Virus record (IMG/VR): IMGVR_UViG_3300010368_004129
Span: 1 to 30,750 of that record
Strand: one strand, 5' to 3'
DNA from: a virus
DNA length: 30,750 nucleotides
The position numbers were made by a program, and so were the translations under genes. Shown piece after piece: positions 13,889-28,377 of this stretch. The notes beneath the pieces were generated by a model. That model was not told where the DNA came from. It saw nothing but the letters and a program-made list of their open reading frames with translations, and searched no databases. Numbering within the stretch: position 1 is the stretch's first letter; every line of letters begins with the position of its first letter.

Positions 13889-14776
13889 ATGAGTATTAAG
13901 ACAACCATAAATACCCCAGAAAATACTCTCAACTACATGAAGTATGTTGAGATTGAAAATGATACTCGCTACCCAGCAGTAACTGGTGGATCGGGTCAAG
14001 ATGTTTTTAATAAGTCTGCAATTTTAGTACAGCAAATCGACCCGCTCGGGTTAGATATCGGTGGTCAATCAGGTACTGATTATGTTGAAAAATTTGGTGC
14101 TAATTTAGAACTTGGGAATAACTTAGAAACTATATGGGAGACAGGTGGTCTATATACCTTTTTAACTACTGCTGGTCCAATTTCAGCGGTAAGTACAGAT
14201 GCTACAGATAATCAAGCGGGTACAGGAGCACGTGAGATAGAAATTTTAGGTCTTGATGAGAATTATGAAACTATAACTGAGCTGATTTCAACTAATGCGA
14301 CTGATGGCCGGAATGGTGGTCCTGTATCTACTCAAAACTTTTTAAGAATCTACAGATCTAGAGTAACTAAATCAGGTTCAACTGGTACCAATGATAGTGT
14401 TATAACGATGAAATCAGGTGGTATAACGGTAGTTACAATAGGTACGCATGGTACCGGTGCCAATGAAGAAGGTTTTGGTCAATCACAGATAGGAGTATAC
14501 ACTATACCTGCAGGTAAGACGGGGTATTTAACGCAGTGGACCATGGGATGTAGCCGATATAATGAAGGGGTAAATGCCTTTATTTATGTAAGACCAATTA
14601 ACGGGAATGGTACTACATCTATATTAGATAATGTCTTCTTTATCGGTAATACAATAAAAGATTATAAAGTACCACTACCTCTAGAGGAGAAAACCGATAT
14701 CGAAATCAGAGCATATAACAGCGCTACTGGCGTACCTGTCAACACTACGTTTAATATAATCTTAGTAGATAATTAG
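13889..14776 (+). CDS. Virion structural protein, 295 aa
   Basis: Probable beta-rich structural protein. After an N-terminal Thr/Asn segment it has the LELGNNLETIWETGGLYTFLTT stretch (about 72-93), a pattern seen in structural proteins of many marine phages, followed by REIEILGLDENYETITELI and a Gly/Thr/Ser-rich beta-strand domain (TGYLTQWTMG, VNAFIYVRP, DIEIRAYNSATG). No membrane or signal segment. It lies between the head-protein group and the fibre-like gene, has its own late promoter, and may be part of the tail, fibre or head surface. The precise virion location is not deducible. Confidence 0.75.
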   Translation: MSIKTTINTPENTLNYMKYVEIENDTRYPAVTGGSGQDVFNKSAILVQQIDPLGLDIGGQSGTDYVEKFGANLELGNNLETIWETGGLYTFLTTAGPISAVSTDATDNQAGTGAREIEILGLDENYETITELISTNATDGRNGGPVSTQNFLRIYRSRVTKSGSTGTNDSVITMKSGGITVVTIGTHGTGANEEGFGQSQIGVYTIPAGKTGYLTQWTMGCSRYNEGVNAFIYVRPINGNGTTSILDNVFFIGNTIKDYKVPLPLEEKTDIEIRAYNSATGVPVNTTFNIILVDN

Positions 14777-14799
14777 GTTAGTTGTGAAAAAGAAAGAAG

Positions 14800-14809
14800 T
14801 AAATAAATA
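14800..14809 (+). promoter_or_regulatory. Late promoter element (TAAATAAATA, 5 nt to ATG)
   Basis: Two overlapping TAAATA copies; the second (14804-14809) ends 5 nt before the ATG at 14815. Confidence 0.65.
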
Positions 14810-14814
14810 ATCTT

Positions 14815-15381
14815 ATGAGTGGAGTCGTACCAAGAACAGGCGAAGTAAGTATATCGTGCATCAATTCGGTAAGAAGGTGCAAGACTAATCAGCAATCCCG
14901 TATTGTCGAAAATCCAAATACTTACGCTTCCGGTAGTCAAAACTTCTATAGAAATCAGGCTGCCATGCGCGGGTTTAATGGAGAGAATGAGGGTCTAAAA
15001 TTTTCTGAATTCAGAGGTGCTCAGGTTATAACGGCATGTATACGTACGCAAGCCGAAACTTACAAGTATTTTTATGGTAACAATGATGATGGTAAAATCT
15101 TTGCGTGTATTCAAGTTAATACTATTAATGCTGATGGAGGTGCAAGATATTACGGTTACCAGCTCAATAACGGGGCGTATCAAATATGTACAAACAATAA
15201 CTTTAAGACGTGGAATAATCTACAAGGAGGGGGACCAGCAGCCGGTACTTCCACAAACTATGACGTTCGCTTAAAGGATAATGTCACAGGAGCAAATCTA
15301 GGTAAGAGTGTTCAAGTATTATACGATGCTGTTGACCTCATATATATCTGCATACAGGCTAAAGATGGTACAATTATCTAG
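14815..15381 (+). CDS. Putative tail-fibre or virion surface protein, 188 aa
   Basis: Unrecognised in detail. The N-terminus MSGVVPRTGEVSISCINSVR is followed by NEGLKFSEFRGAQVI near 58-72, a Gly-x-Lys/Ser-x-Ser-x-Phe-x-Gly-Ala type motif often seen in phage fibre proteins just before the tip region. The rest is Asn/Thr/Tyr/Gly-rich and beta-like with no low-complexity collagen or coiled coil. Downstream is the glycan cassette, so this gene or the next is a candidate acceptor for glycosylation. The call rests on composition and position. Confidence 0.6.
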   Translation: MSGVVPRTGEVSISCINSVRRCKTNQQSRIVENPNTYASGSQNFYRNQAAMRGFNGENEGLKFSEFRGAQVITACIRTQAETYKYFYGNNDDGKIFACIQVNTINADGGARYYGYQLNNGAYQICTNNNFKTWNNLQGGGPAAGTSTNYDVRLKDNVTGANLGKSVQVLYDAVDLIYICIQAKDGTII

Positions 15382-15421
15382 AGGGCCGGTTAAGATGCCT
15401 TGATACTCGAGGCGATCATAT

Positions 15422-15427
15422 TAAATA
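15422..15427 (+). promoter_or_regulatory. Late promoter element leading the 15433 gene and glycan cassette
   Basis: ATTAAATA ends exactly 5 nt before ATG 15433, which decides the start of that gene. No further late or early element with correct spacing was seen until 26469, so this may drive the whole 11-kb unit. Confidence 0.6.
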
Positions 15428-15432
15428 GCCAT

Positions 15433-16341
15433 ATGCACTTTCAGAATGTATTACATGAAATAAGTCAGAGGTTCATATACACTATAAACTATACTAACGA
15501 TGCTGGTGAGCGGGCATATGCTTTAGTAACGACGTCACCTGAAATTGTACCAGACGAGGCGGTATCTGAAGTGTTGAGTACTACAGATCTCAAAGACAGT
15601 GCAGGTCTCGAAGAATTCGTCTTCTGGGACCTTTTTACTTCAACTGTATTACGTCTACCAGTACAGGGACGTGCTATTAGCTTTACATTTAGCAAGCTAG
15701 ATTTATTTCCCGTTCAAGATCCTGAAGATCTCCTGCATATTACGGACCAGGTTGCTATAGATAATTATAATGACGAGATTGTTAGTATACATAATAAGCG
15801 GAGGCAGGCTATTATAGATATACATACAGAATTAAGTACTGACTATAAGATGGTATTCACGGAAAAGGAGATAATGTATTATATAAACCTCATTAATACT
15901 CACTACTTTGCGGAGTATGAACCACAGCAAACATCATATCCAATAAAGTTGTGTATGTTACTCAAGAGTACTCCCTATAAGCTTTTAAGAGGCGAGGTAG
16001 TAGAGCAGGATTTTAATACAGCTAAAGATCAGTGGATGTTAGTTATCAAGCATCATATTGAAAAAGCTAAGAATCAGTTAGATAGTGAAGCAGCTTCATT
16101 AGATAAGGAGGCTGATACATATGATTGCGATTTAGAAGAGATTGAAATTATAAAAACTTTACTCGATGATATTCCGGAAGAGTTTGTAGATGAGCTAGAT
16201 GAATGTGGTACGTATAACGATCTGCTCGAGACGTGGCCGCCACTCTTACTACCAGCTCCGCCGTTTATCATCGACCAGCCATCAGGTATGAATGTTTTTG
16301 AGAAACTTAAAAACCGGATCGAGCGGAAATTTTATGATTGA
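15433..16341 (+). CDS. Unknown late protein, 302 aa
   Basis: I do not recognise this protein. It has a beta-like N-terminal part (FIYTINYTNDAGERAYALVTT), a central helical region with DQVAIDNYNDEIVSIHNKRRQ, a long acidic coiled-coil-like segment (EKAKNQLDSEAASLDKEADTY...DLEEIEIIKTLLDDI) and a Pro-rich end (WPPLLLPAPPFIIDQP). An upstream TTG at 15400 keeps the frame open, but ATG 15433 is chosen because of the late element 5 nt before it. It follows the fibre-like gene and overlaps the aminotransferase gene by 8 nt, linking structural genes to the cassette. A fibre assembly or virion role is plausible only by position. Confidence 0.7.
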   Translation: MHFQNVLHEISQRFIYTINYTNDAGERAYALVTTSPEIVPDEAVSEVLSTTDLKDSAGLEEFVFWDLFTSTVLRLPVQGRAISFTFSKLDLFPVQDPEDLLHITDQVAIDNYNDEIVSIHNKRRQAIIDIHTELSTDYKMVFTEKEIMYYINLINTHYFAEYEPQQTSYPIKLCMLLKSTPYKLLRGEVVEQDFNTAKDQWMLVIKHHIEKAKNQLDSEAASLDKEADTYDCDLEEIEIIKTLLDDIPEEFVDELDECGTYNDLLETWPPLLLPAPPFIIDQPSGMNVFEKLKNRIERKFYD

Positions 16342-17206
16342 TCTATCTAAGAATATACACTACGATGAGATATTTTTAGGCCAAGTTAAAATGTGTCTAG
16401 GTGACCTTGATATTGATAGCAATAGCCAACCTAGCGATGATGGTGTAGTGAATATTATATCTAACTATTATAATATCAATAAGAAAAATTTATCGATAGG
16501 GTTTGGCTCAGGTGACGTGTTAAAAAGAATTATAGACCTGCCAGAGGTGGATCATCTATATGTTGTCGAGCCAACGTTTAGGGGTGCAATGATATATGCT
16601 CGTAATAAAGGTATATCATACAGACCACTACATTATACTAAGTTTAACGAGATACAATTATCGATGTTTCCCGTTAACGGTATTATTTATATAGCAAATC
16701 CTAATGGTAATAATGGCCATAGCTTTAAGAAGGAAGATTTACTTGAGATTATTAGACGCAGTAAATTAACTATTTTAGATGAGGCGTACGTCGAGTTTGG
16801 AGGAGAGTCCCTTATAAATGATGTAAGTGATAAGCTAATAGTTTTAAGGACATTCAGTAAGAGTTTAGGTATGCCTAATATTAGGTGCGGCTTTGCAGTA
16901 TCGTCAGAATCAAATATTGATAAATTAAGAAGACATGATCTAATATATAACTCTACTAATTTAGCATATCATATTCTAAAAGAGAAGATTGATCAGATAC
17001 CGCCAATTGTTGATAGAATGAAACAGGGTAAAGATTTTCTACAGCAGAATTTTAGTCATATAAAATCTGATGGTAATTATGTTTTAATAGACATTAAATA
17101 TGCCGATACATTTAGTAAGTTCTGTAAATTTTCTACACGCGGTGACTATCTAAGAATCGCATTAACAAATACAAGATTATTAAAGGAGTGTCTACAGAAA
17201 TTTTAA
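16334..17206 (+). CDS. PLP-dependent aminotransferase, HisC-like
   Basis: A 290-residue class I/II (histidinol-phosphate type) aminotransferase, shorter than the usual 350. Visible landmarks are GSGDVLKRI (56-66, near the PLP phosphate site), ANPNGNNG at 121-128 (for the usual NPNNPTG), ILDEAYVEF at 147-155 with Asp149 and Tyr152 contacting PLP, and RTFSKSLGMPNIRCG at 172-186 with Schiff-base Lys176. It would move an amino group between an amino acid and a 2-oxo or phospho-sugar-like substrate. The frame is open from 16292, but ATG 16334 overlaps the previous gene by only 8 nt and fits the protein. First enzyme of the cassette. The true substrate is unknown. Confidence 0.85.
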   Translation: MIDLSKNIHYDEIFLGQVKMCLGDLDIDSNSQPSDDGVVNIISNYYNINKKNLSIGFGSGDVLKRIIDLPEVDHLYVVEPTFRGAMIYARNKGISYRPLHYTKFNEIQLSMFPVNGIIYIANPNGNNGHSFKKEDLLEIIRRSKLTILDEAYVEFGGESLINDVSDKLIVLRTFSKSLGMPNIRCGFAVSSESNIDKLRRHDLIYNSTNLAYHILKEKIDQIPPIVDRMKQGKDFLQQNFSHIKSDGNYVLIDIKYADTFSKFCKFSTRGDYLRIALTNTRLLKECLQKF

Positions 17207-18045
17207 ATATATCCGATCATAGAGATGCACAATCTAATATAGATACAGTTGATGGCGTATACTCTATGTTACGAGCAGTTGAGATTAATCCAACTGAGCT
17301 ATGTAATAGGCGATGCTCGTTTTGCCCTAGACATGATTCTAAATTATACCCTAATACTAATAATCATATAAGCTTAGATACTGTAAAGAATTTATGTACT
17401 AGCTTAAAATATATTAATTTTAATAATAGAGTAGGGTTTGTCGGTTTCGGTGAACCTCTATTACATGAAAATATCTATGAGTGTATTAAGGTTGTACGAG
17501 ATATGCTGCCTGATCTCAAGTGGTTAGAAATTAATACAAATGGTGATTTGTTAGATAGTAAGACCCTTGAGAACCTTCATGAAGCAGGTTGTTCTCATAT
17601 TGCAGTAAGTATGTATGATAAGGATATAACAAGCAGACTAATAGGGATGAGAGGGGATATACCTATTAATTTCGTATTCAGACACCACTACGATAAGAGT
17701 AATAATTATAATTTAAATATAGTTAATAGGTCAGAATTACTAAAAGGCGAGGCCACAACTTATTTTGATACACCGTGCCATATTCCATTCTATAAAGCCA
17801 TGATTGACTGGAATGGTGATGTATTGTTATGTAATAATGATTGGAAGAGAAGTAAAATATATGGCAATATAAACGAAGTAAGTTTTGATAAAATTTGGTT
17901 TGGTGATGAGTTGAATACTCATAGAGATAAGCTTATGTGTAGTAGATCACAATGCGACCCATGCAAGAACTGTTCAGTTAATGGATTATTGAGAGGAGCT
18001 GAATCAATAGAAGTATATAAGGCATACCATGAAAAAGTGTATTAA
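17188..18045 (+). CDS. Radical SAM/SPASM-domain enzyme
   Basis: An iron-sulfur enzyme that cleaves S-adenosylmethionine to start radical chemistry. CNRRCSFC (Cys39, Cys43, Cys46 counting from the GTG) is the CxxxCxxC cluster motif; VGFVGFGEPLLHEN follows as the GGEP-like SAM motif. The C-terminal region has CHIPFYKAMIDWNGDVLLCNNDW and a CSRSQCDPCKNCS cluster, typical of SPASM auxiliary-cluster domains. GTG 17188 overlaps the previous gene by 19 nt with AAGGA too close to act; ATG 17266 is a possible shorter start just 13 residues before the cluster. SPASM enzymes modify peptides, amino acids or sugars. In this cassette a sugar (for example dehydrogenation or epimerisation) is likely. Confidence 0.85.
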   Translation: MSTEILNISDHRDAQSNIDTVDGVYSMLRAVEINPTELCNRRCSFCPRHDSKLYPNTNNHISLDTVKNLCTSLKYINFNNRVGFVGFGEPLLHENIYECIKVVRDMLPDLKWLEINTNGDLLDSKTLENLHEAGCSHIAVSMYDKDITSRLIGMRGDIPINFVFRHHYDKSNNYNLNIVNRSELLKGEATTYFDTPCHIPFYKAMIDWNGDVLLCNNDWKRSKIYGNINEVSFDKIWFGDELNTHRDKLMCSRSQCDPCKNCSVNGLLRGAESIEVYKAYHEKVY

Positions 18046-18712
18046 TATTTTTATCGGCTTTGAAGAAGCACATCCTGAAGCTTATAATGTATGTCACAAA
18101 AGTATATTGAAAGGTAATAAGAAGTATGAGCTTAATATTAAACCTATTAATTATAATACTGTTTCGGACTATTACAGAGCTAAAGATGAAACAGAATCTA
18201 CTCAATTTTCGTTCGCTCGTTTCTGGACTCCATGGGAAAGCAACCGAACAGGGGTAAGTATATTTGTAGATAGTGACTTCGTCTTCCTTGAGTCTATAGA
18301 TAACCTCATCGATCTTTATGATGATCAATACGCTGTAATGTGCTGTAAGCATAAAGAGTATAAACCTAAGGGCGCGGTTAAGATGGGAGGTAAGCTACAA
18401 TCTCAATATCCTAAAAAGAACTGGAGTAGTTTAATTATCTTTAATAATTCGTACTTGGCTAACGATGCACTATGCCCTATATTTTTAAACTCGTATACCG
18501 GTGCCCATTTGCATAGATTTGAATGGCTTAAAGACAGTGAAATTGGTGCATTACCGGTAGAATGGAATTGGTTAGTTGATTACTATACTGAGACTGAAGG
18601 CTTCAAACCTAAAGCTTTACATTATACAGACGGGGGACCGTGGTTAGAGGGTTACGAGAACTGCTCGTATAGTGATAAATGGCACCAGATATATAATGAG
18701 ATATCTATATAA
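18029..18712 (+). CDS. Glycosyltransferase, GT-A fold (GT8-like), first of cassette
   Basis: A 227-residue probable glycosyltransferase. IFVDSDFVFLE gives the DxD metal/nucleotide-sugar motif at 81-83, preceded by FSFARFWTPW (a conserved Arg region). It has NWSSLIIFNNS near 131-141 and LPVEWNWLVDYY and LHYTDGGPWLEGY toward the C-terminus, the latter with a metal-binding-like His. Short, single domain, no membrane segment, so soluble. The start overlaps the radical SAM gene by 17 nt. Confidence 0.75.
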   Translation: MKKCINIFIGFEEAHPEAYNVCHKSILKGNKKYELNIKPINYNTVSDYYRAKDETESTQFSFARFWTPWESNRTGVSIFVDSDFVFLESIDNLIDLYDDQYAVMCCKHKEYKPKGAVKMGGKLQSQYPKKNWSSLIIFNNSYLANDALCPIFLNSYTGAHLHRFEWLKDSEIGALPVEWNWLVDYYTETEGFKPKALHYTDGGPWLEGYENCSYSDKWHQIYNEISI

Positions 18713-19649
18713 ACAGGATACCTATTTACCTCTTCTCTATAGTAAGTTAGGTGATGATGATATCAGCTTATTTCTTAAGAAATATTATGCGCATGCTAAT
18801 TTTGAGCAAGACCACTCATTTATACAAAATGATATCAAAGGACCTTTAACCATAACTAATATTAGCTTGCATATATATAATAAGTTAAAAAAGAAGAGTT
18901 ATAATAAGACTGATATACAGCAAAATGTATTCAATATTAACAAGCAACAGGTTAATAAGCTATCTAAAAATAAATTTAAGATTAACTACCCGTCCACTAT
19001 CGAACGTGGTGGTGTGACAAAGGAGGCTTTCCTTAATATCAGAAATAAAAAAATGTCTAATCGCTCTCTAGTATTATACTTTAGAGGGCCATGGAGAGAT
19101 TTTAACAATACGGCGTGTGTTGATATGTATCACATCACTGTATTGTATAGCGTAATAAAGCTACTAATCGATAATGGTAATTTTAAATCATTTAATGATG
19201 TGTTTATTGTACAAACAGATGTAGATATGAATGAGTTTGATGCATTTAAGGACCTAAAAGTATCAACTAATACCGGTAATGAGTTTTTAGAAGATACGTG
19301 CTTATTTGCAAATACTATTCATTTTAATATAGGTGAGTTGCCTGATCTATATAGCTTTACTCAACCCATTATATCATCCTCACATATATTTAATGACTTC
19401 CATCTACCAAAAGTTGATGATAGATTTATATTTGATGCAATTTACCCAGAGGTCCAATATAATGAAAGTACAAAAATACAATATTGTACAGACATGGAAA
19501 AACACTATAATGGTACGCAGACGAGCTGGCAAAATATTTGTAGTGATATAAGTAATTTGAAGACAATCCATAATAGCCGCGGAAATGTTTATAAAGTGGT
19601 TGAAAATATTATTGATGTAATTTATAATATTGATAATGAATGTTTGTAG
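18696..19649 (+). CDS. Unknown cassette protein, 317 aa
   Basis: I do not recognise this gene. ATG 18696 (MRYLYKQDTY) gives a 17-nt overlap with the previous gene, in keeping with its neighbours. The N-terminal 120 residues are Lys/Asn-rich. The second half has short hydrophobic strands (LVLYFRGPWRDF, VFIVQTDVD, TIHFNIGELP) that could form a Rossmann-type or GT-B-like fold, but no diagnostic motif was found. It sits between a glycosyltransferase and an oxygenase, so a role in the same pathway is likely. It could be a divergent glycosyltransferase or a sugar-modifying enzyme. Confidence 0.7.
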   Translation: MRYLYKQDTYLPLLYSKLGDDDISLFLKKYYAHANFEQDHSFIQNDIKGPLTITNISLHIYNKLKKKSYNKTDIQQNVFNINKQQVNKLSKNKFKINYPSTIERGGVTKEAFLNIRNKKMSNRSLVLYFRGPWRDFNNTACVDMYHITVLYSVIKLLIDNGNFKSFNDVFIVQTDVDMNEFDAFKDLKVSTNTGNEFLEDTCLFANTIHFNIGELPDLYSFTQPIISSSHIFNDFHLPKVDDRFIFDAIYPEVQYNESTKIQYCTDMEKHYNGTQTSWQNICSDISNLKTIHNSRGNVYKVVENIIDVIYNIDNECL

Positions 19650-20178
19650 AGAGTTTCTTAGTAGTGAAAAAAAGGCTAACCTCGCCATATTTTTAGATAA
19701 CTCCCCGTATTGGGAGAGCTTTTGCGATAATAAAAATACAGAGAGGAGCGCCTTTAACTTTACCCTAAAGTCAGATGAATTGCCTGACTTTCTCTCGGAA
19801 TTCAAATCACCAAAGCATAATCTATACCACTTCGTTGCTATAAAAACATACAAGAGTGGCAGTATTGATGAACATGTCGATTTTGCTCTAGGTGAAGTAC
19901 TAATACATAATCATCCTGGTATATTTATTAGTAACCCGGAAACGGTCATCTATTACGAAACAGTCGACCCTAATATGAAGGGAGGCGAATTGGTGATTGA
20001 ACACAATCTACTTAAACCGGTAGAGAACACTGCAGTAATAATTGCGCCAGGTACACCGCATGCGGTTACAGCAATTGAAGAAACAGTTAAACCTAGGATC
20101 GTCTTAGTATGTGAGCGATATAGAGTACTATCAAGGTATCTTAAAGATATTGAAACCCCGGAATATAAAAAAGGTTAA
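19636..20178 (+). CDS. 2-oxoglutarate-Fe(II) oxygenase-like protein
   Basis: A 180-residue probable non-haem iron hydroxylase. Iron ligands are visible: HVD (His80, Asp82) in SIDEHVDF and His142 in APGTPHAV, with Arg154 in KPRIVLVCERY 12 residues later to bind 2-oxoglutarate. GGELVIEHN at 117-124 matches the strand before the distal His. The spacing HxD-60-H-12-R is normal for the double-stranded beta-helix family. ATG 19636 (MNVCREF) was chosen over TTG 19630; the gene overlaps the previous by 14 nt. It may hydroxylate or otherwise oxidise the sugar, lipid or peptide that the cassette makes. Confidence 0.75.
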   Translation: MNVCREFLSSEKKANLAIFLDNSPYWESFCDNKNTERSAFNFTLKSDELPDFLSEFKSPKHNLYHFVAIKTYKSGSIDEHVDFALGEVLIHNHPGIFISNPETVIYYETVDPNMKGGELVIEHNLLKPVENTAVIIAPGTPHAVTAIEETVKPRIVLVCERYRVLSRYLKDIETPEYKKG

Positions 20179-20179
20179 T

Positions 20180-21136
20180 ATGAACATAGCAATCGTAGGA
20201 GGCGCCGGCTTTATCGGCAGACACACTGCTCGTGAACTTATATCGCACGGGCATACCGTATCAATATTTGATAATAACTTAGCTAACTGTCATGACTTCT
20301 TTAGTGAGGCAGAAATTCTGAGTTTACAGTTTGTGTATTGTGATGCTCAGGATTATCGTATGCTTAAGAGTATGTTATCATACGGTGACGGGTTTAGCGC
20401 CGTATATATGCTTGCAGCTATATCAGATAGTAAGGAAAATCTAGCTGATATACCTCATGCAGTTAGTACTAACATTATGTGCCTCGCAAATACGTTAGAA
20501 GCCGCAAATAGTCTAAAGATACCGCGAATTATATTTTCATCTACTGTGTGGGTGTACAGTATATCACCAGATACTCAAGTGAATGAGGAGTCTCCTCTAC
20601 ATATGAACAGCTCTGACCATGTTTATACAACATGTAAGGTAGCGTGTGAGGCTCTAGTGCGTAATTTTTGTGCTGTTAAGGCCATAGATTACACTATATT
20701 ACGGTATGGTATTGCATACGGACCTGGTTGTCACCCAGATACCGTTATGTCTCGGTTTATAACCAACGCAATTACCGGTGTTCCGCTCACTATAACCGGG
20801 GATGGGAACATTTACAGGAACTTCTTGAACGTAAATGATCACGCTAAGGGGAACTACCTAGCTTTATGTGATGGAGCTAAAAATGAGACTATTAATCTAG
20901 AAGGCCCTGAAAAAATAACGCTCACTGAAGTAGCAACAAGGGTCAAAGAGTTACATTCAGGTGATACTACTATTGAATATACGGGGCAACGGCATGGTGA
21001 CTATATAGGCAAGGTAGTTGATAATAAGAAAGCTGCAGCTATACTAGGCTGGAAACCTACAATTGATTTTAAAACAGGTTCTAAAACACTTTATGAGTAC
21101 ATCAAAAAAGATATTAATAATAGCGCCGCATGCTGA
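20180..21136 (+). CDS. NAD(P)-dependent sugar epimerase/dehydratase (SDR, extended)
   Basis: A 318-residue extended short-chain dehydrogenase/reductase. GGAGFIG at 7-13 is the Rossmann NAD-binding motif, FSSTVW at 119-124 contains the catalytic Ser/Thr, and YTTCK at 149-153 is the YxxxK active site. C-terminal NVNDHAKGNYLAL and TGDGNIYRNFLNV match UDP-glucose 4-epimerase-like and nucleotide-sugar enzymes. It would act on a nucleotide-linked sugar such as UDP-glucose, UDP-GlcNAc or dTDP-glucose; the substrate cannot be read from the sequence. The ATG lies 1 nt past the previous stop. It overlaps the deacetylase by 44 nt. Confidence 0.88.
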   Translation: MNIAIVGGAGFIGRHTARELISHGHTVSIFDNNLANCHDFFSEAEILSLQFVYCDAQDYRMLKSMLSYGDGFSAVYMLAAISDSKENLADIPHAVSTNIMCLANTLEAANSLKIPRIIFSSTVWVYSISPDTQVNEESPLHMNSSDHVYTTCKVACEALVRNFCAVKAIDYTILRYGIAYGPGCHPDTVMSRFITNAITGVPLTITGDGNIYRNFLNVNDHAKGNYLALCDGAKNETINLEGPEKITLTEVATRVKELHSGDTTIEYTGQRHGDYIGKVVDNKKAAAILGWKPTIDFKTGSKTLYEYIKKDINNSAAC

Positions 21137-21725
21137 TGATGAGGTATTAGGTGTTGGTGGTACTACACAGAAGTTTATCCGAGAGGGTCATGATGTATAT
21201 CTTATTATATGTTGTACACGCGAAAAAGACATTGAAGAATATAAAGAATGTACTACACACTTTAAGCAAACATTTCGCTTACCTTTTGAAGACGAGTCTC
21301 TAGAGGCACAAGTAACTCCTCTACTAAAGAGTATCGAGGAGGTATATACGGTTATAAAGCCAGATTGGACTTTTATACCTCGTGAGAATGACTTTAATCT
21401 AGATCATAGAGCGGTACATAGAGCGTGTGAAGTAGTCCTTAGACGGTATCAAGAACATGCGCCAGTTAAGATTTTCGAGTATGAAATACCTTCCTCAACT
21501 ACTCAGTCCTTTGATAATAATTTTAAAGGTAATGTATATATACCGCTGACCCGTAATGATGTTCTCACTAAGATAGATTTACTCGCATCACATATACATG
21601 AAGTGAGAGTATACCCTAATCCTAGAAGTAGCGAGGGCCTTCTCACTTACGCTAAATTTAGAGGTATGGAGTGTGATGCAGAATATGCTGAATACTTTAA
21701 CTTAATATACTCAAAAGACTTATGA
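21093..21725 (+). CDS. LmbE/PIG-L family deacetylase
   Basis: A 210-residue zinc-dependent de-N-acetylase. The N-terminal APHADDEVLG motif (His13, Asp15, Asp16, Glu17) supplies metal ligands and base; NDFNLDHRAVH near 99-109 supplies the second His. Family members remove acetyl from GlcNAc-type amino sugars (GlcNAc-PI, MshB, BshB, antibiotic and LPS sugars). ATG 21093 (MSTSKKILIIAPHADDE) is chosen; the frame is open to 21063. It overlaps the epimerase gene by 44 nt and the next gene by ATGA. A free amine from this step could be the site for the amidinotransferase below, which is an inference. Confidence 0.88.
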   Translation: MSTSKKILIIAPHADDEVLGVGGTTQKFIREGHDVYLIICCTREKDIEEYKECTTHFKQTFRLPFEDESLEAQVTPLLKSIEEVYTVIKPDWTFIPRENDFNLDHRAVHRACEVVLRRYQEHAPVKIFEYEIPSSTTQSFDNNFKGNVYIPLTRNDVLTKIDLLASHIHEVRVYPNPRSSEGLLTYAKFRGMECDAEYAEYFNLIYSKDL

Positions 21726-22342
21726 ATACACCATGGGATAATGTCTCGAAATTTGAAGAATTAATAGCAGACTACGCAGGTAGTAAATATGCTGTTGCTG
21801 TTGATAGTTGCACAAACGCTATCTTTCTCTCTCTTAAGTATGCTAAGGATGTATTACGGGAAGATGTAGATTATATTGAGGTGCCTAAGAAGACTTATAT
21901 ATCAGTACCCATGCAAGTAATGCATGCAGGTTATAGAGTAAAGTTTACAACAGCTGAATGGATAGGTGCATATAAATTAACCCCTCTATCTGTATATGAT
22001 TCCGCTCAGAGATTTACAAAGGGTATGTATATACCAGAGTCTTTATATTGTTTATCTTTCAACCATAAAAAGACCCTATCGACAGGTAAGGGTGGTATGA
22101 TTTTAACAGATGATATCGATGCAAAAAAATGGTTAGATATAATGAAGTATGATGGTCGTACATCTATATTTTATAATGAAAATACTGATATTGATCAACT
22201 AGGTTATCATATGTATATGGCTCCGGAACAAGCTGTTATTGGTATACAAAACTTCTACGGATTACCGGACAGGAACCCCGATAAAATGGGGTATAGAGAT
22301 TATAATCTCGATCTCTCTACATTAAAAGCATTCCATGGATAA
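21722..22342 (+). CDS. DegT/DnrJ/EryC1-type sugar aminotransferase, short
   Basis: A 206-residue relative of PLP-dependent sugar aminotransferases. Landmarks are YAVAVDSCTNAIFLSL near 23-38, VYDSAQRF at 91-98 with Asp93 for the PLP ring nitrogen, SFNHKKTLSTGKGGMILTDD at 112-131 with Lys116 or Lys117 as Schiff-base Lys, and MYMAPEQAVIGIQNF at 164-178. Full-length members have about 370 residues; the C-terminal domain is missing here, and the central region is shorter. It is not frameshifted: the stop overlaps the next gene by 8 nt. It may be a compact phage enzyme or a degenerate one. It overlaps the deacetylase by ATGA. Confidence 0.8.
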   Translation: MNTPWDNVSKFEELIADYAGSKYAVAVDSCTNAIFLSLKYAKDVLREDVDYIEVPKKTYISVPMQVMHAGYRVKFTTAEWIGAYKLTPLSVYDSAQRFTKGMYIPESLYCLSFNHKKTLSTGKGGMILTDDIDAKKWLDIMKYDGRTSIFYNENTDIDQLGYHMYMAPEQAVIGIQNFYGLPDRNPDKMGYRDYNLDLSTLKAFHG

Positions 22343-23153
22343 AAGAATTATAATTTTAGGTAACGGTAATTTAGGTAAATATTTAGAGCGGTATTTAAGT
22401 AAGCTTTACTCAGTTACAGTGTATGATAGAAGGCATTTTAATGCTATGTTCTTTTCTGATTCAGAGTTTTTTAAACGTAATATTAAATCAGGTGATGTAG
22501 TAATTAATAGTGTAGGTCTTTTAAAACCAAATATTAAGTCGCAGGAAGCTGCATGGGAGGTAAATGCTGTATTTCCTCAAATTATGCAATCTATATGTGA
22601 AGATAATAATGCCAACTTTATACATATATGCAGTGATTGCGTCTTTAAAGGAGATAAAGGTAAGTACCTGGAAATTGATGAGCCTGACTGCAACGAAGCC
22701 TACGGTATATCAAAAAGCCAAGTAACAGAAGGTACTATTATACGTACATCATTTATAGGTAAGTATGGCGGCTTACTTAAATGGGTATTAGATAGCTATG
22801 AGCTCGGAGCCGAAGAGATCACCGGTTATGATAACTGTATATGGAATGGTGTTACAGCTCTAGAGCTATGTAAATATATCACTTTAATTATTGATGCAGA
22901 TGATTTCTGGGACGGGGTTCAGCACTTTCATACACCCGGCGCCATCTCGAAGTATAATCTATGTAAATTGATTAGTGAGATTTACGGTTTAAATATTACT
23001 ATCAACCAGGTAGAAGCTACTGATATAAGTGGTACTACAATAAGCAATAAGCTCGATAGAACACTTGCTAGCACACGACGCTTACCATATGTACCTACCT
23101 TCGAGCAGCAGCTTAAGGAGCTTAAATTATATGATAGTAAACAGTCACAATGA
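22335..23153 (+). CDS. RmlD-like NAD(P)-dependent sugar reductase
   Basis: A 272-residue SDR similar to dTDP-4-dehydrorhamnose reductase. GNGNLG at 9-14 binds NAD(P), HICSDCVFKGDKG near 97-109 holds the catalytic Ser100 with the usual S-D-x-V-F-x-G run, and YGISK at 123-127 is the YxxxK site. The domain ends in a short region (PTFEQQLKEL). It would reduce a 4-keto nucleotide sugar, consistent with a deoxysugar. Start ATG at 22335 overlaps the aminotransferase by 8 nt; its end overlaps the amidinotransferase by 23 nt. Confidence 0.85.
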   Translation: MDKRIIILGNGNLGKYLERYLSKLYSVTVYDRRHFNAMFFSDSEFFKRNIKSGDVVINSVGLLKPNIKSQEAAWEVNAVFPQIMQSICEDNNANFIHICSDCVFKGDKGKYLEIDEPDCNEAYGISKSQVTEGTIIRTSFIGKYGGLLKWVLDSYELGAEEITGYDNCIWNGVTALELCKYITLIIDADDFWDGVQHFHTPGAISKYNLCKLISEIYGLNITINQVEATDISGTTISNKLDRTLASTRRLPYVPTFEQQLKELKLYDSKQSQ

Positions 23154-24225
23154 ATGGGATCAATTAGAGGAAGTTATCGTAGGCGATGGCTTTCCAACCT
23201 CCCTACCTCTACTCGATTATTCGTTTAAATTGTTCTTTCATGAAAACCTTTGGGATGAAAAACACTATGAATTTGGCGATCAGACTATTCAGAAATGGCA
23301 TTGTGAAGAGCATGCTGAAGATTTAGATAAGTTTAGTTACCTTCTACAGTCACTAGGTGTAAAGGTCAGACGTCCTAAAAAGCCTAAAAAACTAAGCAAG
23401 GTTAAGACCCCTTTATGGGGCAGTACTATTCACCCCGCTCTCAATGTAAGGGATATGGCTATGGTGGTTGGTGATACTATTATTGAATCTCCACCTACAT
23501 GTAGATACAGATATTTTGAGAACGATTATTTACATCATTTATTTTTAGAATACTTCAAGCAAGGCGGTAGGTGGATACAAGCTCCTAAACCTCTAATGAC
23601 CGATAATAGCTTCGACCTATCGTGGATTGATGAAGAGGATGGCAAGCAATATTACCAGAGTATTAAGCAAAAAGAACATTATATGGACTGCGGTCTAGAG
23701 ATAATGTTTGATGCTGCTAATTGTGTCAGACTCGGTAGCCATATATTAATGAATGTAGCTAATAAGAATCAGGAGTTAGGAGCTAAATGGTTGCAGCAAA
23801 CTCTAGGTGATAGATATAAGGTACTCACTACATCAGTTGCAGATTCTCATATTGATTCATCATTCTTACCGTTACGACCAGGCTTAGCTATTATCACAAA
23901 GGAGTATGTAAAGGAGAAGCTTCCTACAGAATTACAGTCATGGGATTTAGTCTATATACCTATGAAGCAGAGAGCTCAATCTGAAAAAGAAGCACAAGGT
24001 ATTAAGCTAGCGTCTCCTAGAATAGAACTAAACGTATTCTCGATCTCGCCTGAACTTATTGTATGTCACCCCCAGTATGAGGTAGAGTTAAATAGAGCTC
24101 TATCTAAGTACGGTATAACAGCAATAGGTACACCGTTCCGGCATTGTGAGATTTTTAGTGGTGCACATCACTGCACAACATTAGACATAAGACGGAAAAG
24201 TAAATATGAAAACTACTTCGAATAA
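23131..24225 (+). CDS. Glycine/inosamine-type amidinotransferase
   Basis: Transfers the amidino group from arginine to a primary amine, leaving ornithine and a guanidino compound. The 364 residues have the fold and catalytic triad of the AGAT/StrB1 family: NVRDMAMVVGD at 105-115, Asp194 in IMFDAANCVRLGSH, His240 in SHIDSSFLPLRPG and the nucleophile Cys348 in SGAHHCTTLDIRR. Relatives act on glycine (creatine pathway) or on scyllo-inosamine phosphate (streptomycin). ATG 23131 is chosen because AAGGAG lies upstream at 23115-23120, one of the few Shine-Dalgarno sequences seen here; the open frame extends to 23065. Within a sugar cassette, an amino sugar or aminocyclitol is the likelier acceptor, but glycine is not excluded. 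Confidence 0.88.
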   Translation: MIVNSHNEWDQLEEVIVGDGFPTSLPLLDYSFKLFFHENLWDEKHYEFGDQTIQKWHCEEHAEDLDKFSYLLQSLGVKVRRPKKPKKLSKVKTPLWGSTIHPALNVRDMAMVVGDTIIESPPTCRYRYFENDYLHHLFLEYFKQGGRWIQAPKPLMTDNSFDLSWIDEEDGKQYYQSIKQKEHYMDCGLEIMFDAANCVRLGSHILMNVANKNQELGAKWLQQTLGDRYKVLTTSVADSHIDSSFLPLRPGLAIITKEYVKEKLPTELQSWDLVYIPMKQRAQSEKEAQGIKLASPRIELNVFSISPELIVCHPQYEVELNRALSKYGITAIGTPFRHCEIFSGAHHCTTLDIRRKSKYENYFE

Positions 24226-24970
24226 TGCAATAACTTGCTCTACTGATTATAACTACATTCACTACCTATATAAACTGGTAGATAGCTTATATGTAAATAA
24301 TACAGACGCTGCTGTTTTTGTACGTCTTGTAGATTTTACACCGGCTCAATTTGAAGAAGTAAAATCTAAGATAACAAATAAGAAAGTAGAATATATACTC
24401 GATGAACCTAATCTCAGTAACCGTAAAGATATATTAAAAGATGTTGATCATGCGATGCATTATATTTACGGTGTAGATGTATGTAAAACAGGTAGTAAGA
24501 ATATTAAGAGACTACTTTATAGTAAACGTAGTGTATATACATGCCATAGCCGCTTTAAAACAATTAGTATGCTACTGAATAAAGGTTACAGTACTGTATT
24601 GAGTTTAGATGTGGACACTGTTGTTATAAGAGACATAAACCATATGTTTAATAATCATGAGTATGATGTATCTATTGTACCTACATATATAGACGGTAAT
24701 ACCGAATTATGGTATAATGAAGGTCTCTTACATATAAGCAATACCCCTCAATCAGTTTTATTTTTTAAAGAAGTCGAAGACTTTATTTTTGATAGCGACA
24801 GGTATTTTGAATGGAATATAGATTCAGAAGCTCTTGGCGAGTGTTTTGCAAGAAGACAAAATTTAAGAGTAGGTTATCTAGATGATGCTTATAAGGATAA
24901 AGAGTTCGACGATGATTCGTATATGTGGTCTGGTGACAGTATAAACAAATACAACGATAAGTTTAAATGA
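24206..24970 (+). CDS. Glycosyltransferase, GT-A/GT8-like, second of cassette
   Basis: A 254-residue probable nucleotide-sugar transferase. VLSLDVDTVVI gives the DxD motif at 135-137, preceded by CHSRFKTISMLLNKGY, the pattern before the DxD in GT8-like enzymes. YNEGLLHISNT and FEWNIDSEALGECF follow. No membrane segment. The start overlaps the amidinotransferase stop by 20 nt, and the stop overlaps the next gene by ATGA. Substrates unknown. Confidence 0.75.
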   Translation: MKTTSNNAITCSTDYNYIHYLYKLVDSLYVNNTDAAVFVRLVDFTPAQFEEVKSKITNKKVEYILDEPNLSNRKDILKDVDHAMHYIYGVDVCKTGSKNIKRLLYSKRSVYTCHSRFKTISMLLNKGYSTVLSLDVDTVVIRDINHMFNNHEYDVSIVPTYIDGNTELWYNEGLLHISNTPQSVLFFKEVEDFIFDSDRYFEWNIDSEALGECFARRQNLRVGYLDDAYKDKEFDDDSYMWSGDSINKYNDKFK

Positions 24971-25755
24971 ACAAAATAATACACCAGATGTGGGATAAAG
25001 GTACCCCACCAGATCAACTAGTTGAGTGGAGTAAAAAGCTTAAAATAATCCATCCAGATTTTAGGTATATGTTTTGGACTCTAGAGGATATGTATGATTT
25101 TATTGCGACTAAGTATAGTTGGTTTTTACCTACATTCGAGGCATACCCTGAGTTAATACAGAGAATAGATTCCTTCAGATATTTTATCATATATGAATAT
25201 GGCGGTTTATATATCGATTTGGATATTGAATGTTTTAAGCGATTAGATATTCTTTTAAAGGACGATTGTGTATTATTTCAAACACATCCGGAATATCAAA
25301 TTAAAAAAATAATAGATGATGATAACCGAGAGCATCCTTTACGTAAACACTTTCCATTACAGAAGCTTAGGAAAGGTTATTTTTTAACTAATAGTATTTT
25401 TTATGGTAATTGTGGTCATAAGTTTTTTAAGAGGTGTTTAGAGAATCTTGAAGAGAGTTATGAGGAAAGTAAGAGATACAGGTTTACAGAATTTGACTTC
25501 TTAAATAAGTCAAAGGTATGCAATACACACGCAATGATGGCAACAAGTGGTGGGTTTCTAACTAGAATGTTCTTTAAATATGGTAAGGTATATAACGTGC
25601 AGGACTACAGTTACAGCTTTTTTGAACCGTATGAGCATACCAGGCGTAAAGAAATTTTATTAAATAAAGAAGCTTTTGATAAAAAGGATCTTTATGGGAT
25701 GCACTGGAATTTAGGTAGCTGGATAAATTTAGAGGACTCGGAATATAAAATATGA
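24967..25755 (+). CDS. Glycosyltransferase, GT32-like (OCH1/capsular type)
   Basis: A 262-residue enzyme with the GT32 sugar-binding region containing DXD. The N-terminus NKIIHQMWDKGTPP is the IPKIIHQxW motif, and RIDSFRYFIIYEYGG (67-80) with LYIDLDIEC (81-89) gives the DxD at 84-86. Family members use UDP- or GDP-sugars in capsule, lipid A or mannan synthesis. HWNLGSW at the C-terminus is the usual His-containing close. It is coupled by ATGA on both sides to glycosyltransferases, so these three act in series. Confidence 0.88.
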   Translation: MNKIIHQMWDKGTPPDQLVEWSKKLKIIHPDFRYMFWTLEDMYDFIATKYSWFLPTFEAYPELIQRIDSFRYFIIYEYGGLYIDLDIECFKRLDILLKDDCVLFQTHPEYQIKKIIDDDNREHPLRKHFPLQKLRKGYFLTNSIFYGNCGHKFFKRCLENLEESYEESKRYRFTEFDFLNKSKVCNTHAMMATSGGFLTRMFFKYGKVYNVQDYSYSFFEPYEHTRRKEILLNKEAFDKKDLYGMHWNLGSWINLEDSEYKI

Positions 25756-26468
25756 AGGTGACTGATGTACATGTTTGCTATGTTATTAACGATAACAAGG
25801 ATTTTATAGATCTTACTATTAAGTCTGCTAGACAATTAAAAAAATTCTTTAGGTCTAAACAGCATAATTTAAAGATTTATGCGTTAAGTGAAATGATATT
25901 GGACGGGTTACCATCGTTTATTGAAAATATAGTTTCACCTCATAAAGGTATACCACTACTATGGCAACGTATGTATATACCGGAGCTGATTAATTCTGAT
26001 AAATGCATCTTCATGGATAGCGATACTCTAGCATATACTTGTATTAGTAAGTTATGGGATATTGATATTGGAGACAGTTATATAGCACTAGCTCCACACT
26101 ATTGCATGCATACTATCCAGGAGATGCTTAACCACTACGGTTTAAATGAGTTTCCACTATACAGAGCCAAGGGAGACGTACAGCAATATTATAATTGCGG
26201 TGTGTCTGTTATAAACAGTAGACTATGGAGAGACCTGAGCCTCATTGAAATACCACTAAAGTATTATGAGAGTATTAAAAGTACATCACATTGGAAAAAT
26301 GATGAACCTACATATAACGTCTGCTTTTCTGATAAGATATTTGAGCTCGATGAAACGTGGAATTACTATCCTATAGGTACTTACAAGAGAGCAAACATTG
26401 TACACTACTACGGTACGTACATTAAAGGTAAACCTTTTCATAATGAATTTGCTATTCATCCAGACTGA
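25752..26468 (+). CDS. Glycosyltransferase, GT8-like, last gene of cassette
   Basis: A 238-residue member of the GT8 (lipopolysaccharide/glycogenin-like) type. CIFMDSDTLAY gives the DxD at 89-91, QQYYNCGVSVINSRLW is the conserved N-C/S-G-x-x-x-x-N segment, and NIVHYYGTYIKGKPF holds the C-terminal metal-binding His. The stop at 26468 is followed by a perfect late promoter, so the cassette ends here. Confidence 0.85.
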   Translation: MKVTDVHVCYVINDNKDFIDLTIKSARQLKKFFRSKQHNLKIYALSEMILDGLPSFIENIVSPHKGIPLLWQRMYIPELINSDKCIFMDSDTLAYTCISKLWDIDIGDSYIALAPHYCMHTIQEMLNHYGLNEFPLYRAKGDVQQYYNCGVSVINSRLWRDLSLIEIPLKYYESIKSTSHWKNDEPTYNVCFSDKIFELDETWNYYPIGTYKRANIVHYYGTYIKGKPFHNEFAIHPD

Positions 26469-26476
26469 TATAAATA
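26469..26476 (+). promoter_or_regulatory. Late promoter, perfect TATAAATA (6 nt to ATG)
   Basis: TATAAATA directly follows the previous stop codon and ends 6 nt before the ATG at 26483. Confidence 0.75.
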
Positions 26477-26482
26477 ATTTAT

Positions 26483-26680
26483 ATGAAAGAAGAAATTCAA
26501 TTAAACATTACAGATCTAGCAGAATATCAAACTCACTTCGCAACTGATGTTAGTTTGTTTCTTGAAAAGGATAACAAGTCTGCAGCTACGAGAGCGCGTA
26601 AATCGCTACTAGAAATTTCTAAGCTATGTAAAGAGATTAGAAAACAAATTCAGGAGATTAAGAATAGCTCTACAGCTTAG
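26483..26680 (+). CDS. Small histone H1-like protein
   Basis: A 65-residue protein whose second half (NKSAATRARKSLLEISKLCK and EIRKQIQE) resembles the Hc1-type bacterial histone family signature (Lys-x-Ala-Ala-x-Arg-x-Arg-Lys...Lys-x-x-Lys-x-x-Arg-Lys). Two helices with regularly spaced Lys/Arg suggest DNA binding. Its first 30 residues are acidic, which is unusual. It has a perfect late promoter and lies next to putative packaged proteins, so it might be a head nucleoid protein. Confidence 0.65.
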   Translation: MKEEIQLNITDLAEYQTHFATDVSLFLEKDNKSAATRARKSLLEISKLCKEIRKQIQEIKNSSTA

Positions 26681-26694
26681 TACATAAAACTGCT

Positions 26695-26700
26695 TAAATA
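26695..26700 (+). promoter_or_regulatory. Late promoter element (TAAATA, 5 nt to GTG)
   Basis: CTTAAATA ends 5 nt before the GTG at 26706. The adjacent ATG at 26704 is out of frame, so spacing and frame agree on GTG. Confidence 0.65.
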
Positions 26701-26705
26701 ATAAT

Positions 26706-27125
26706 GTGAAATCGTTTAAGCAATTTTTTGAAGCAAACAAGCCACTTGGCTTAGTAGAGACGCTCCATTTCCAAGATTTAGGTCCCATTGAAGCTAAAGT
26801 TGATAGCGGCAATGGGGCTTATAATGTACTGCACGGACAAAACATCCAAGAAGTTGCAGACGGTCAAATATCATTTGATACCGTGAATGGTAAAACATTA
26901 ACTATGCCAGTTAGAGAGTATATTGATATTAATATAGGCTCTGGTAATATAGAGACAAGACCAGTAATCGAACTTGATATAGAGATTGGTGATGATAGCT
27001 TCCCTAAGACAAGATTTTCTGTAGGTGATAGATCATCTAACGAATATAAGATTCTATTAGGTAAGGACTTTATCGAACAGCTAGGCGGCTTAATCGATGT
27101 AAGTGCTGAAAACAACCTCGATTAG
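26706..27125 (+). CDS. Retropepsin-like/RimK-associated protease-family protein, putatively packaged
   Basis: A 139-residue protein with the clan AA aspartic-protease-like layout: IEAKVDSGNGAYNVLHG (Asp33-Ser-Gly35 in the DTG position), a beta-rich middle with RPVIELDIEIG, and the closing VGDRSSNEYKILLGKDFIEQLGGLIDVS that matches the R..(N/S)...LLGR.F motif of the family. The N-terminus MKSFKQFFE|ANK is almost the T4 internal-protein targeting peptide with F-F-E|A as cut site. It begins at GTG 26706. Possible roles are a peptidase delivered into the host or a non-enzymatic member. It overlaps the convergent gene by 4 nt. Confidence 0.72.
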   Translation: MKSFKQFFEANKPLGLVETLHFQDLGPIEAKVDSGNGAYNVLHGQNIQEVADGQISFDTVNGKTLTMPVREYIDINIGSGNIETRPVIELDIEIGDDSFPKTRFSVGDRSSNEYKILLGKDFIEQLGGLIDVSAENNLD

Positions 27126-27652
27126 TACCAGTCAGGTTTATTAACTGACGTCCAGGTAGCAAAAGGCTTATCTTCTCTAATATAAGATCTATACTGATCT
27201 ATTACTGACAGTCTTTCGAAGTCTTTATCTCGTCGACATTTGCAGTCTTGATTAATAGCGACAGCAAATTCAGTCAACCCAGTTTTATTAATAATAGTAT
27301 TGTGTAAATTACTCTTACACCATTTAATAAAATCTAATGTAAAATGTTCTTTTGAGCCTGGCCATCTAACCATTCGCTCCGTAAACATTTCAAGTGTGTG
27401 ATCGACTAACCACATAAAGTTATCAGTCGTCTCACGTGCCCATATACTGCATTGATGATTGAAGTAGCCTTTACCTCGTTTACGTGGTTTACCAGTTGAC
27501 GTCCTAGGACAATCTTCGTGATTTAACACTTCTTGAGGAAAGGCGTGTGCTAACATTATAGCACCTTCAATTTGCATCTTTGAACGAACATGTTGATCGC
27601 ATAATTCCTTCGCAGCAATAACAGGATCATTATCAGTACAAAATATATTCAT
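27122..27652 (-). CDS. Conserved phage protein (CDQHVxxKM family), 176 aa
   Basis: A conserved phage-type protein with N-terminal MNIFCTDNDPVIAAKELCDQHVRSKMQIEGAIMLAH. The aDQHv...E pattern recalls the first helix of T4 endonuclease V (DenV), and such proteins are sometimes annotated as pyrimidine-dimer glycosylases, but the catalytic Thr2 of DenV is not present here (residue 2 is Asn). CSIWARETTDNFMWLVDHTLEM and MVRWPGSKEHF follow, with conserved Trp and His. I cannot assign a reaction. It is transcribed with folE on the minus strand, and has its own TATAAT 6 nt before the ATG. Confidence 0.72.
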   Translation of the reverse strand: MNIFCTDNDPVIAAKELCDQHVRSKMQIEGAIMLAHAFPQEVLNHEDCPRTSTGKPRKRGKGYFNHQCSIWARETTDNFMWLVDHTLEMFTERMVRWPGSKEHFTLDFIKWCKSNLHNTIINKTGLTEFAVAINQDCKCRRDKDFERLSVIDQYRSYIREDKPFATWTSVNKPDWY

Positions 27653-27658
27653 ACCGAT

Positions 27659-27664
27659 ATTATA
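27659..27664 (-). promoter_or_regulatory. -10 element TATAAT, 6 nt to ATG of the 27652 gene
   Basis: Minus-strand TATAAT lies in the 24-nt gap after the folE stop and ends 6 nt before the ATG. No good -35 box is seen at 16-18 nt. Confidence 0.55.
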
Positions 27665-27676
27665 ATAGTGTTCCTA

Positions 27677-28327
27677 CTATCTACCCCAGTCGTTAACAAA
27701 CGTATAGAACTCACTACGCGTAGATGTATCATTCAGAAAATCCCCACTCAGTTTTGAGGTCTTCATCTCACATCCATCATGCTTAATACCGCGGAGGCAT
27801 GCGCAAGTATGAGATGCAGAGATCATTACTGCAACACCTTTATTACCTTCACATACTTCATCAATTGCTTTATGAATCTGAGTAGTTAGACCTTCTTGAA
27901 TCTGCGGACGTCTAGCATAATGCTCTACAATTCTATTCAATTTACTTAGACCGATAACTTTACCATCAGCAGAGGGTAGATAAGCAACGTGACACCTACC
28001 AGTAAATGCTAGGTGGTGATGTGAACATAAACTCTTTACAGGAATACCACCCTGAAATACCATCCCGTTATAGCCATCTGAAGGGAAAGCTGTAATATTA
28101 GGTAGTTCATTATAGCAGCCGGCTGCAATATCATTTACATAGGCTTTAGCAACACGCTTAGGTGTACCATCACTATTAGGATCGTTTCTCCAGTCAATAC
28201 GTAAAGCATCTAGAAACTTTTCATAAGCTTCTGTAGCGTTAAGGATAACCTGTTGTTTTTCGTCATCGCTGAGCGGCATATTACCATTAGCGGTTGGTAG
28301 CTTGGTTAGTTTAATTCTATCGGACAT
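27677..28327 (-). CDS. folE: GTP cyclohydrolase I
   Basis: Converts GTP to 7,8-dihydroneopterin triphosphate, the first step of folate and of 7-deazaguanine (queuosine/preQ0) synthesis. The 216 residues have zinc ligands Cys101 and His104 in CSHHHLAFTG and Cys175 in HTCACLRG, plus TPKRVAKAY near 55-63, PVKSLCSHHH, SKLNRIVEHYARRPQIQE (129-146) and the closing TRSEFYTFV, all as in the family. The frame is open to 28456, but ATG 28327 with TATAAT 6 nt upstream is preferred and gives normal length. With queD nearby, the phage probably makes a 7-deazaguanine derivative, often used to modify phage DNA. Confidence 0.96.
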   Translation of the reverse strand: MSDRIKLTKLPTANGNMPLSDDEKQQVILNATEAYEKFLDALRIDWRNDPNSDGTPKRVAKAYVNDIAAGCYNELPNITAFPSDGYNGMVFQGGIPVKSLCSHHHLAFTGRCHVAYLPSADGKVIGLSKLNRIVEHYARRPQIQEGLTTQIHKAIDEVCEGNKGVAVMISASHTCACLRGIKHDGCEMKTSKLSGDFLNDTSTRSEFYTFVNDWGR

Positions 28328-28333
28328 ACCCTT

Positions 28334-28361
28334 ATTATATAGTATAGTCCAACGAAAGCAA
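28334..28361 (-). promoter_or_regulatory. Sigma70-type promoter of folE, leaderless spacing
   Basis: TTGCTT (28361-28356), 16 nt, TATAAT (28339-28334), then 6 nt to the ATG at 28327. It overlaps by position the divergent late promoter region of the 28378 gene. Confidence 0.7.
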
Positions 28362-28367: not shown

Positions 28368-28377
28368 TATTTACAAT

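Follow-up and report, generated by a model that had tools for sequence, protein, structure and literature searches.

A BtrN-like twitch radical-SAM enzyme beside a short HisC-like aminotransferase in a glycan cassette of a marine phage

Results

Organization of the cassette

The analysed DNA, referred to here as the window (30,750 nucleotides, positions 1 to 30,750 of IMG/VR virus record IMGVR_UViG_3300010368_004129), comes from a marine virus of bacteria. Its left part carries T4-type replication genes recognised by eye, namely SbcCD/gp46-47-like genes, a UvsW-like helicase and a B-type polymerase fragment. A sugar/glycosyltransferase cassette adjoins the tail genes and spans positions 16334-26468, where 13 genes run head to tail, either overlapping or separated by a gap of at most one base:

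16334..17206, + strand: short HisC-like PLP aminotransferase (ATG start at 16334; Pfam Aminotran_1_2, E = 6.9e-18; HisC 1h1c, E = 2.9e-20)
17188..18045, + strand: BtrN-like twitch radical-SAM protein (285 aa, GTG start; Pfam, sequence and fold matches)
18029..18712, + strand: glycosyltransferase-like protein (phrog_28018, E = 1.3e-50; GT8 matched weakly by one family member)
18672..19649, + strand: cassette protein of no known family, start uncertain (no Pfam or PHROG match; family present in 6 of 44 viral loci)
19630..20178, + strand: possible 2OG-Fe(II) oxygenase (PF13640, E = 1.2e-4, a weak match under the Pfam cut-off)
20180..21136, + strand: NAD-dependent sugar epimerase/dehydratase (PF01370, E = 2.6e-37)
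21093..21725, + strand: PIG-L-type deacetylase (PF02585, E = 6.5e-14)
21722..22342, + strand: shortened DegT-type aminotransferase (PF01041, E = 8.1e-20, in two pieces)
22335..23153, + strand: RmlD-like reductase (PF04321, E = 2.7e-11)
23131..24225, + strand: amidinotransferase, StrB1/GATM family (StrB1 1bwd, E = 1.1e-50)
24206..24970, + strand: glycosyltransferase (PF03407, E = 3.9e-12)
24967..25755, + strand: glycosyltransferase with DXD region (PF04488, E = 7.2e-19)
25752..26468, + strand: GT8-family glycosyltransferase (PF01501, E = 4.6e-19)

The earlier note had placed the radical-SAM gene inside a glycan cassette, next to an aminotransferase and upstream of an amidinotransferase, and this layout was confirmed. 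Sugar-processing and glycosyltransferase genes surround the gene, the aminotransferase gene lies directly upstream with a 19-base overlap, and the amidinotransferase gene is found 5.1 kb downstream, with seven genes in between. The phrog_28018 glycosyltransferase-like protein is often encoded near the radical-SAM gene, within reach in 20 of the 44 non-redundant viral loci. The equivalent cassette of the viral relative L002 (2661-3602) contains two inserted genes, one for a further radical-SAM/SPASM protein of a different kind and one for an additional glycosyltransferase, which suggests that the cassette changes by whole-gene swaps. Further to the right, the window carries a GTP cyclohydrolase I gene (folE, 27677-28456); a QueE-like radical-SAM gene is present in relative L003 (648-1412), which also has folE. 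Together, these genes hint at deazaguanine DNA modification.

The radical-SAM protein carries a twitch domain

The CX3CX2C motif reported from the sequence was present and PF04055 matched residues 33-141 (E = 2e-12), in support of the radical-SAM identity; the three cysteines (C39, C43 and C46) are invariant. Pfam SPASM PF13186 matched residues 197-262 (E = 7.3e-12), and the C-terminal cysteine cluster was likewise found; its two parts, C197-X12-G210-X4-C215 and C259-X2-C262, do not vary across the family alignments. The assignment to full SPASM enzymes had to be revised. SPASM is defined by a seven-cysteine motif, CX9-15GX4C-gap-CX2CX5CX3C-gap-C, and two auxiliary clusters (PMC6231123), and the protein has only the CX12GX4C and CX2C parts, with no cysteine past C262. 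It can thus hold one auxiliary cluster at most, which makes the domain a twitch (half-SPASM) domain, and C197, C215, C259 and C262 align with BtrN residues 169/187/232/235. No NCBIfam model scored above its cut-off, and the PHROG matches were to general radical-SAM groups only. A relative with 87% identity, in L002, starts with ATG where the window gene has GTG. The gene is considered real, since relatives with 27-87% identity keep the frame open and its AlphaFold model is confident (pLDDT 91.5, pTM 0.91).

BtrN is the nearest solved structure

In a phmmer search against solved structures, BtrN was matched at 5.7e-21 and the runner-up at 1.2e-4. A profile built without BtrN still found it at 1.4e-39, followed by a runner-up at 2.5e-8 that covered the core domain only. 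The model superimposed on BtrN with bound 2-DOIA with Z 25.1 (rmsd 2.8, 234 residues), ahead of ChlB and anSME (Z about 15.5) and the twitch dehydrogenase SpeY (Z 15.0), and Foldseek gave 3.5e-19 for BtrN and 2.6e-9 for the best non-BtrN match. Both the full-length sequence and the fold are therefore well above other twitch/SPASM enzymes in their similarity to BtrN, and the placement with BtrN rather than with peptide maturases stands.

An alignment of 96 sequences was prepared (58 viral, 36 bacterial or archaeal, the window protein and BtrN, the last taken from the phmmer output with V in place of M as its first residue). All seven cluster cysteines of BtrN (16/20/23/169/187/232/235) and N151-R152 are kept in the window protein. 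R181, the counterpart of BtrN Arg152, which we take to be an active-site residue, is kept in 95% of the viral and 100% of the bacterial rows. BtrN C16, C20 and C23 are the published ligands of the radical-SAM cluster (PMC9012708). In the tree, the window protein belongs to an all-viral clade of 23 (support 99/97), and BtrN falls outside the virus and bacteria family on a long branch.

BtrN, the 2-deoxy-scyllo-inosamine dehydrogenase of butirosin synthesis (PDB 4m7t), has the full-length fold and the single four-cysteine auxiliary cluster in common with the window protein at about 26% identity. At alignment positions near the BtrN pocket, H117 is replaced by Y143, A118 by D144 and S173 by F201. 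Conversely, BtrN lacks, or has other residues at, the family-conserved R48, D50, Y54, Y143-D144, R165, D207-W208-N209, G266 and G270. The residues that the family shares and BtrN does not have suggest one substrate class common to the family and unlike that of BtrN. The butirosin pathway also has a nearby aminotransferase step (BtrS); this partner is of the DegT/StrS type, whereas the aminotransferase in the window is HisC-like.

The short HisC-like aminotransferase is linked to the radical-SAM gene

Residues D149, Y152, S175-K176, R184 and R274 of the 16334-17206 aminotransferase, which include the PLP lysine and the PLP-binding Asp, Tyr and Arg, were invariant in 17 viral sequences. A short HisC-like aminotransferase was within reach of the radical-SAM gene in 19 of 44 non-redundant viral loci, so more than half are without one. 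The reverse scan with the aminotransferase family returned 43 viral loci, which split cleanly into the 26 closest and 17 others. Among the closest loci, whose proteins have 268-317 aa when complete, 23 of 26 had a BtrN-like neighbour; of the three without one, two (L137, L140) stop at the end of their contig. In contrast, none of the 17 loci with longer HisC-like aminotransferases (about 345 aa) and none of the 16 uvsW control loci had such a neighbour. Many of the 23 linked loci lie on contigs that the first scan had already returned, and some are near-copies of one another, which leaves roughly ten new distinct contigs. The viral records compared here are fragments of genomes. The aminotransferase profile was learned from radical-SAM loci, and part of the linkage thus reflects shared ancestry.

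In a second viral lineage (L030, L049, L054, L086, L089 and relatives), the BtrN-like family is found beside a short SDR-like protein instead of an aminotransferase; genes for a cell-wall hydrolase and a protein resembling T4 RNase H are present in some of its members.

We take Cj1437 and Cj1436 to be HisC-like. These enzymes of capsule clusters use PLP to act on dihydroxyacetone phosphate or serine phosphate; they belong to glycan pathways, as here, but no radical-SAM partner is described for them (PMC11800397). By analogy, the HisC-like partner in the window could instead make a small amino-phosphate.

Distribution among viruses and comparison with known phage blocks

In a scan of IMG/VR, at least 598 stretches contained the motif, and at least 566 of these encode relatives. 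This number from a single scan, together with the phage radical-SAM genes already published (PMC2853527; PMC7029224), shows that the enzyme is not the rare phage use it had been regarded as. A nearly identical motif picked out 41 loci when 84,980 cellular genomes were scanned, and a BtrN-like enzyme was carried by a single genome out of 146 in the genus Bradyrhizobium and by a single one out of 150 in the Sulfurovum family. The named phages with such an enzyme are Campylobacter phages, in two of which it is annotated as 'BtrN protein', and Synechococcus phage S-SCSM2R, in which a HisC-type aminotransferase gene lies directly upstream.

The Campylobacter phages CP220 and CPt10 have a swappable block with five radical-SAM genes and an amidinotransferase, to which no function was assigned (Timms 2010, PMC2853527). 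Like the window, the block encodes a BtrN-like enzyme (29% identity), an amidinotransferase (28%) and a HisC/CobD-like aminotransferase; unlike the window, it has five radical-SAM genes and no PIG-L/epimerase branch. A study of pelagimyophages describes a host recognition cluster in which tail fibre genes occur together with GT8 enzymes and radical-SAM cassettes that can be exchanged, and its authors interpret it as a means of host O-chain modification (Zaragoza-Solas 2020, PMC7029224). The window likewise has a variable region by T4-like tail fibre genes, GT8 and radical-SAM; in the part of the study consulted, 'radical SAM' is named only in general, with no enzyme type, partner or analysis of cluster ligands. 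Another report describes 12 radical-SAM genes in one T4-like genome from the environment (PMC5332604). In six of the viral relatives (L003, L008, L009, L010, L013 and L080), two to five radical-SAM genes of differing types are adjacent in one phage cassette.

Cellular relatives

The 127 genes nearest to the relatives in 33 of the 36 non-redundant bacterial or archaeal loci were scanned. The neighbours included methyltransferases, cytidylyltransferases (8), class III aminotransferases (7), MocA oxidoreductases (6), SIS (5), CBS (5) and GT2 (5), with named matches to KdsB, a PseF-like protein and NeuB. This gene content places the bacterial relatives in clusters for surface glycans. The radical-SAM and HisC-like pair of Sulfurovum comes directly after the end of a Kdo transferase gene, and in the phage relative L003 KdsB scored above the NCBIfam subfamily cut-off. 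GT29-like genes were found in 14 viral loci and in one Bradyrhizobium locus (L095, B. nitroreducens). In the latter, the GT29-like gene joins the aminotransferase and radical-SAM genes in an insert of three genes with 56% GC, flanked by DNA of 65 and 64%, and the set was absent from the other 145 genomes of the genus searched.

The amidinotransferase belongs to a separate module

StrB1 (1bwd) was the closest match of the amidinotransferase (23131-24225). In 31 non-redundant viral amidinotransferase loci, PIG-L was found in 16, the DegT gene in 14 and RmlD in 12; the BtrN-like enzyme occurred within 8 kb in 7 and the short aminotransferase in 3. Three long records (G011, G012 and G015; 69-107 kb, one of them 106 kb) encode the amidinotransferase but neither a BtrN-like enzyme nor a short aminotransferase; one of the three weakly matches a distant radical-SAM protein. 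These differing counts indicate that the cassette consists of two modules side by side, and on the strength of the reciprocal scan we reject the amidinotransferase as a pathway partner of the radical-SAM enzyme. The set of epimerase, PIG-L, DegT, RmlD and StrB1-like amidinotransferase (20180-24225 in the window) recurs in many marine phages that have no radical-SAM gene, and plausibly makes a guanidino sugar. Its DegT-type mini-aminotransferase (21722-22342, 206 aa) has lost internal and C-terminal parts and kept the PLP-lysine region. At least six phages have it at a length of 206-213 aa, and the L002 version is 99% identical, which points to a stable mini-enzyme, not a decaying gene.

A motif-bearing protein between the tail genes and the cassette

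The protein encoded at 15433-16341, between tail-type genes and the cassette, ends in the motif WPPLLLPAPPF. A very divergent family with a terminal WPxLLxPxP occupies the equivalent position in many phages, and in a WPTLLNPSP scan of the whole of IMG/VR all 15 true proteins were on contigs with a BtrN-like enzyme. The protein had no Pfam family and no informative PHROG match. Its model (pLDDT 83) gave no clear match, with a best E of 0.035 in the viral library and a best Z of 8.1 in the PDB, from helices only. It was considered as a substrate of the radical-SAM enzyme and set aside, as the strong co-occurrence is equally explained by shared inheritance.

Discussion

We propose, at about even chances of being right, that the 17188-18045 protein is a BtrN-type twitch oxidoreductase, which turns a sugar alcohol into a ketone that its partner then aminates, to give an amino sugar on the host envelope or the virion. 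The sequence and the model support this by a radical-SAM barrel, one four-cysteine auxiliary site, the conserved arginine and the linkage to the short HisC-like aminotransferase. Cleavage of SAM would produce a 5'-deoxyadenosyl radical that takes a hydrogen from a sugar or polyol at a carbinol carbon. With the second electron passed to the auxiliary cluster, the ketone would form. The neighbouring aminotransferase would convert the ketone into an amine, and the neighbouring glycosyltransferases would attach the amino sugar. As the cassette lies by tail genes, in the manner of the 'host recognition cluster' of T4-like marine phages, the product probably decorates the envelope or the fibres. Decoration of the host envelope would block competing phages; the alternative target would be the fibres of the virion itself.

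Many sugar-acting radical-SAM enzymes are epimerases, dehydratases or isomerases, and an enzyme of the same fold could act on a sugar without net oxidation. The BtrN pocket-region positions, which are not kept, would fit such a reading, and the authors of the SkfB study warn that sequence networks are poor predictors of function for twitch/SPASM enzymes (PMC6231123). Nevertheless, we regard it as unlikely. A fully ligated auxiliary cluster is the state of BtrN, which oxidises, unlike the redox-neutral MoaA with its open site (PMC9012708), and the window protein has the fully ligated four-cysteine site together with R181, present in 95-100% of relatives. Moreover, the nearest solved fold is a dehydrogenase, and a second twitch dehydrogenase, SpeY, is among the matches. 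We give still less weight to modification of a peptide or protein, for which the 15433-16341 protein with its WPxLLxPxP ending would be the best candidate substrate. The 15 of 15 co-occurrence speaks for it, but the largest intergenic gap in the cassette is one base, so no precursor peptide gene fits there, and the model has just a short helix before the barrel and no leader-binding (RRE) domain. The earlier note had named peptide-type clustering with a precursor gene nearby as the outcome that would overturn its reading; with no free coding space and BtrN as the nearest relative, neither was seen. In addition, the WPxLLxPxP protein is absent from 73 of 93 viral radical-SAM loci, one lineage of motif proteins occurs with distant radical-SAM proteins only or with none, and the bacterial relatives sit in glycan clusters without the motif protein within the loci examined.

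The suggested parallel to aminocyclitol antibiotic chemistry fared poorly. In a phage aminocyclitol pathway, the radical-SAM enzyme would oxidise an inosamine and the amidinotransferase would guanidinylate the same molecule. The closest solved relatives of the two enzymes, BtrN and StrB1, do come from aminocyclitol antibiotic pathways, and in the Campylobacter phages, too, radical-SAM genes stand together with genes for an amidinotransferase and an aminotransferase. Against this, the Pfam scan of the genes in 13889-29892 revealed no 2-deoxy-scyllo-inosose synthase, inositol-phosphate synthase or inositol dehydrogenase, the residues near the pocket differ from those of BtrN, and the amidinotransferase is a separable module, found more often with PIG-L (16/31) than with the radical-SAM gene (7/31) or the short aminotransferase (3/31) and present in G011, G012 and G015 without the BtrN-like enzyme. 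Such a pathway is thus very improbable. T4-like phages modify DNA with sugars, and the cassette, radical-SAM enzyme included, might accordingly make a hypermodified DNA base instead of a glycan; folE nearby and the relative with both QueE and FolE would be in keeping with this. We consider it extremely unlikely, as the bacterial relatives are in surface-glycan clusters, the GT8, Gly_transf_sug and GT29-like genes are of the envelope type, and the cassette adjoins tail genes, a setting for which O-chain modification is argued in PMC7029224.

Returning to oxidation followed by amination, the neighbouring KdsB, PseF, NeuB, Kdo transferase and GT29-like genes point to a sugar of the Kdo/nonulosonate class. 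We tentatively suggest, while thinking it more probably wrong than right, that a widespread viral 'oxidise then aminate' pair, composed of a dehydrogenase that is a sister of BtrN and the short HisC-like aminotransferase, aminates a surface acid sugar of this class. A CMP-sugar enzyme was near only 8 of the 36 bacterial loci, which makes the link suggestive, a lead.

Reports of radical-SAM genes in phages, both marine ones and those of Campylobacter, go back to 2010 and gave these genes no role; a concrete, testable reaction is now proposed for one abundant type of them. The placement with BtrN, the aminotransferase partner and the separation from the amidinotransferase are new here, and the three-gene version in a cultured Bradyrhizobium offers a place to work out the chemistry. 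If the acid-sugar proposal is true, the pair would be an oxygen-independent route for phages to new envelope or virion sugars. More broadly, phages would use radical chemistry to rewrite sugar coats, which would matter for how phages compete and how receptors change in the ocean.
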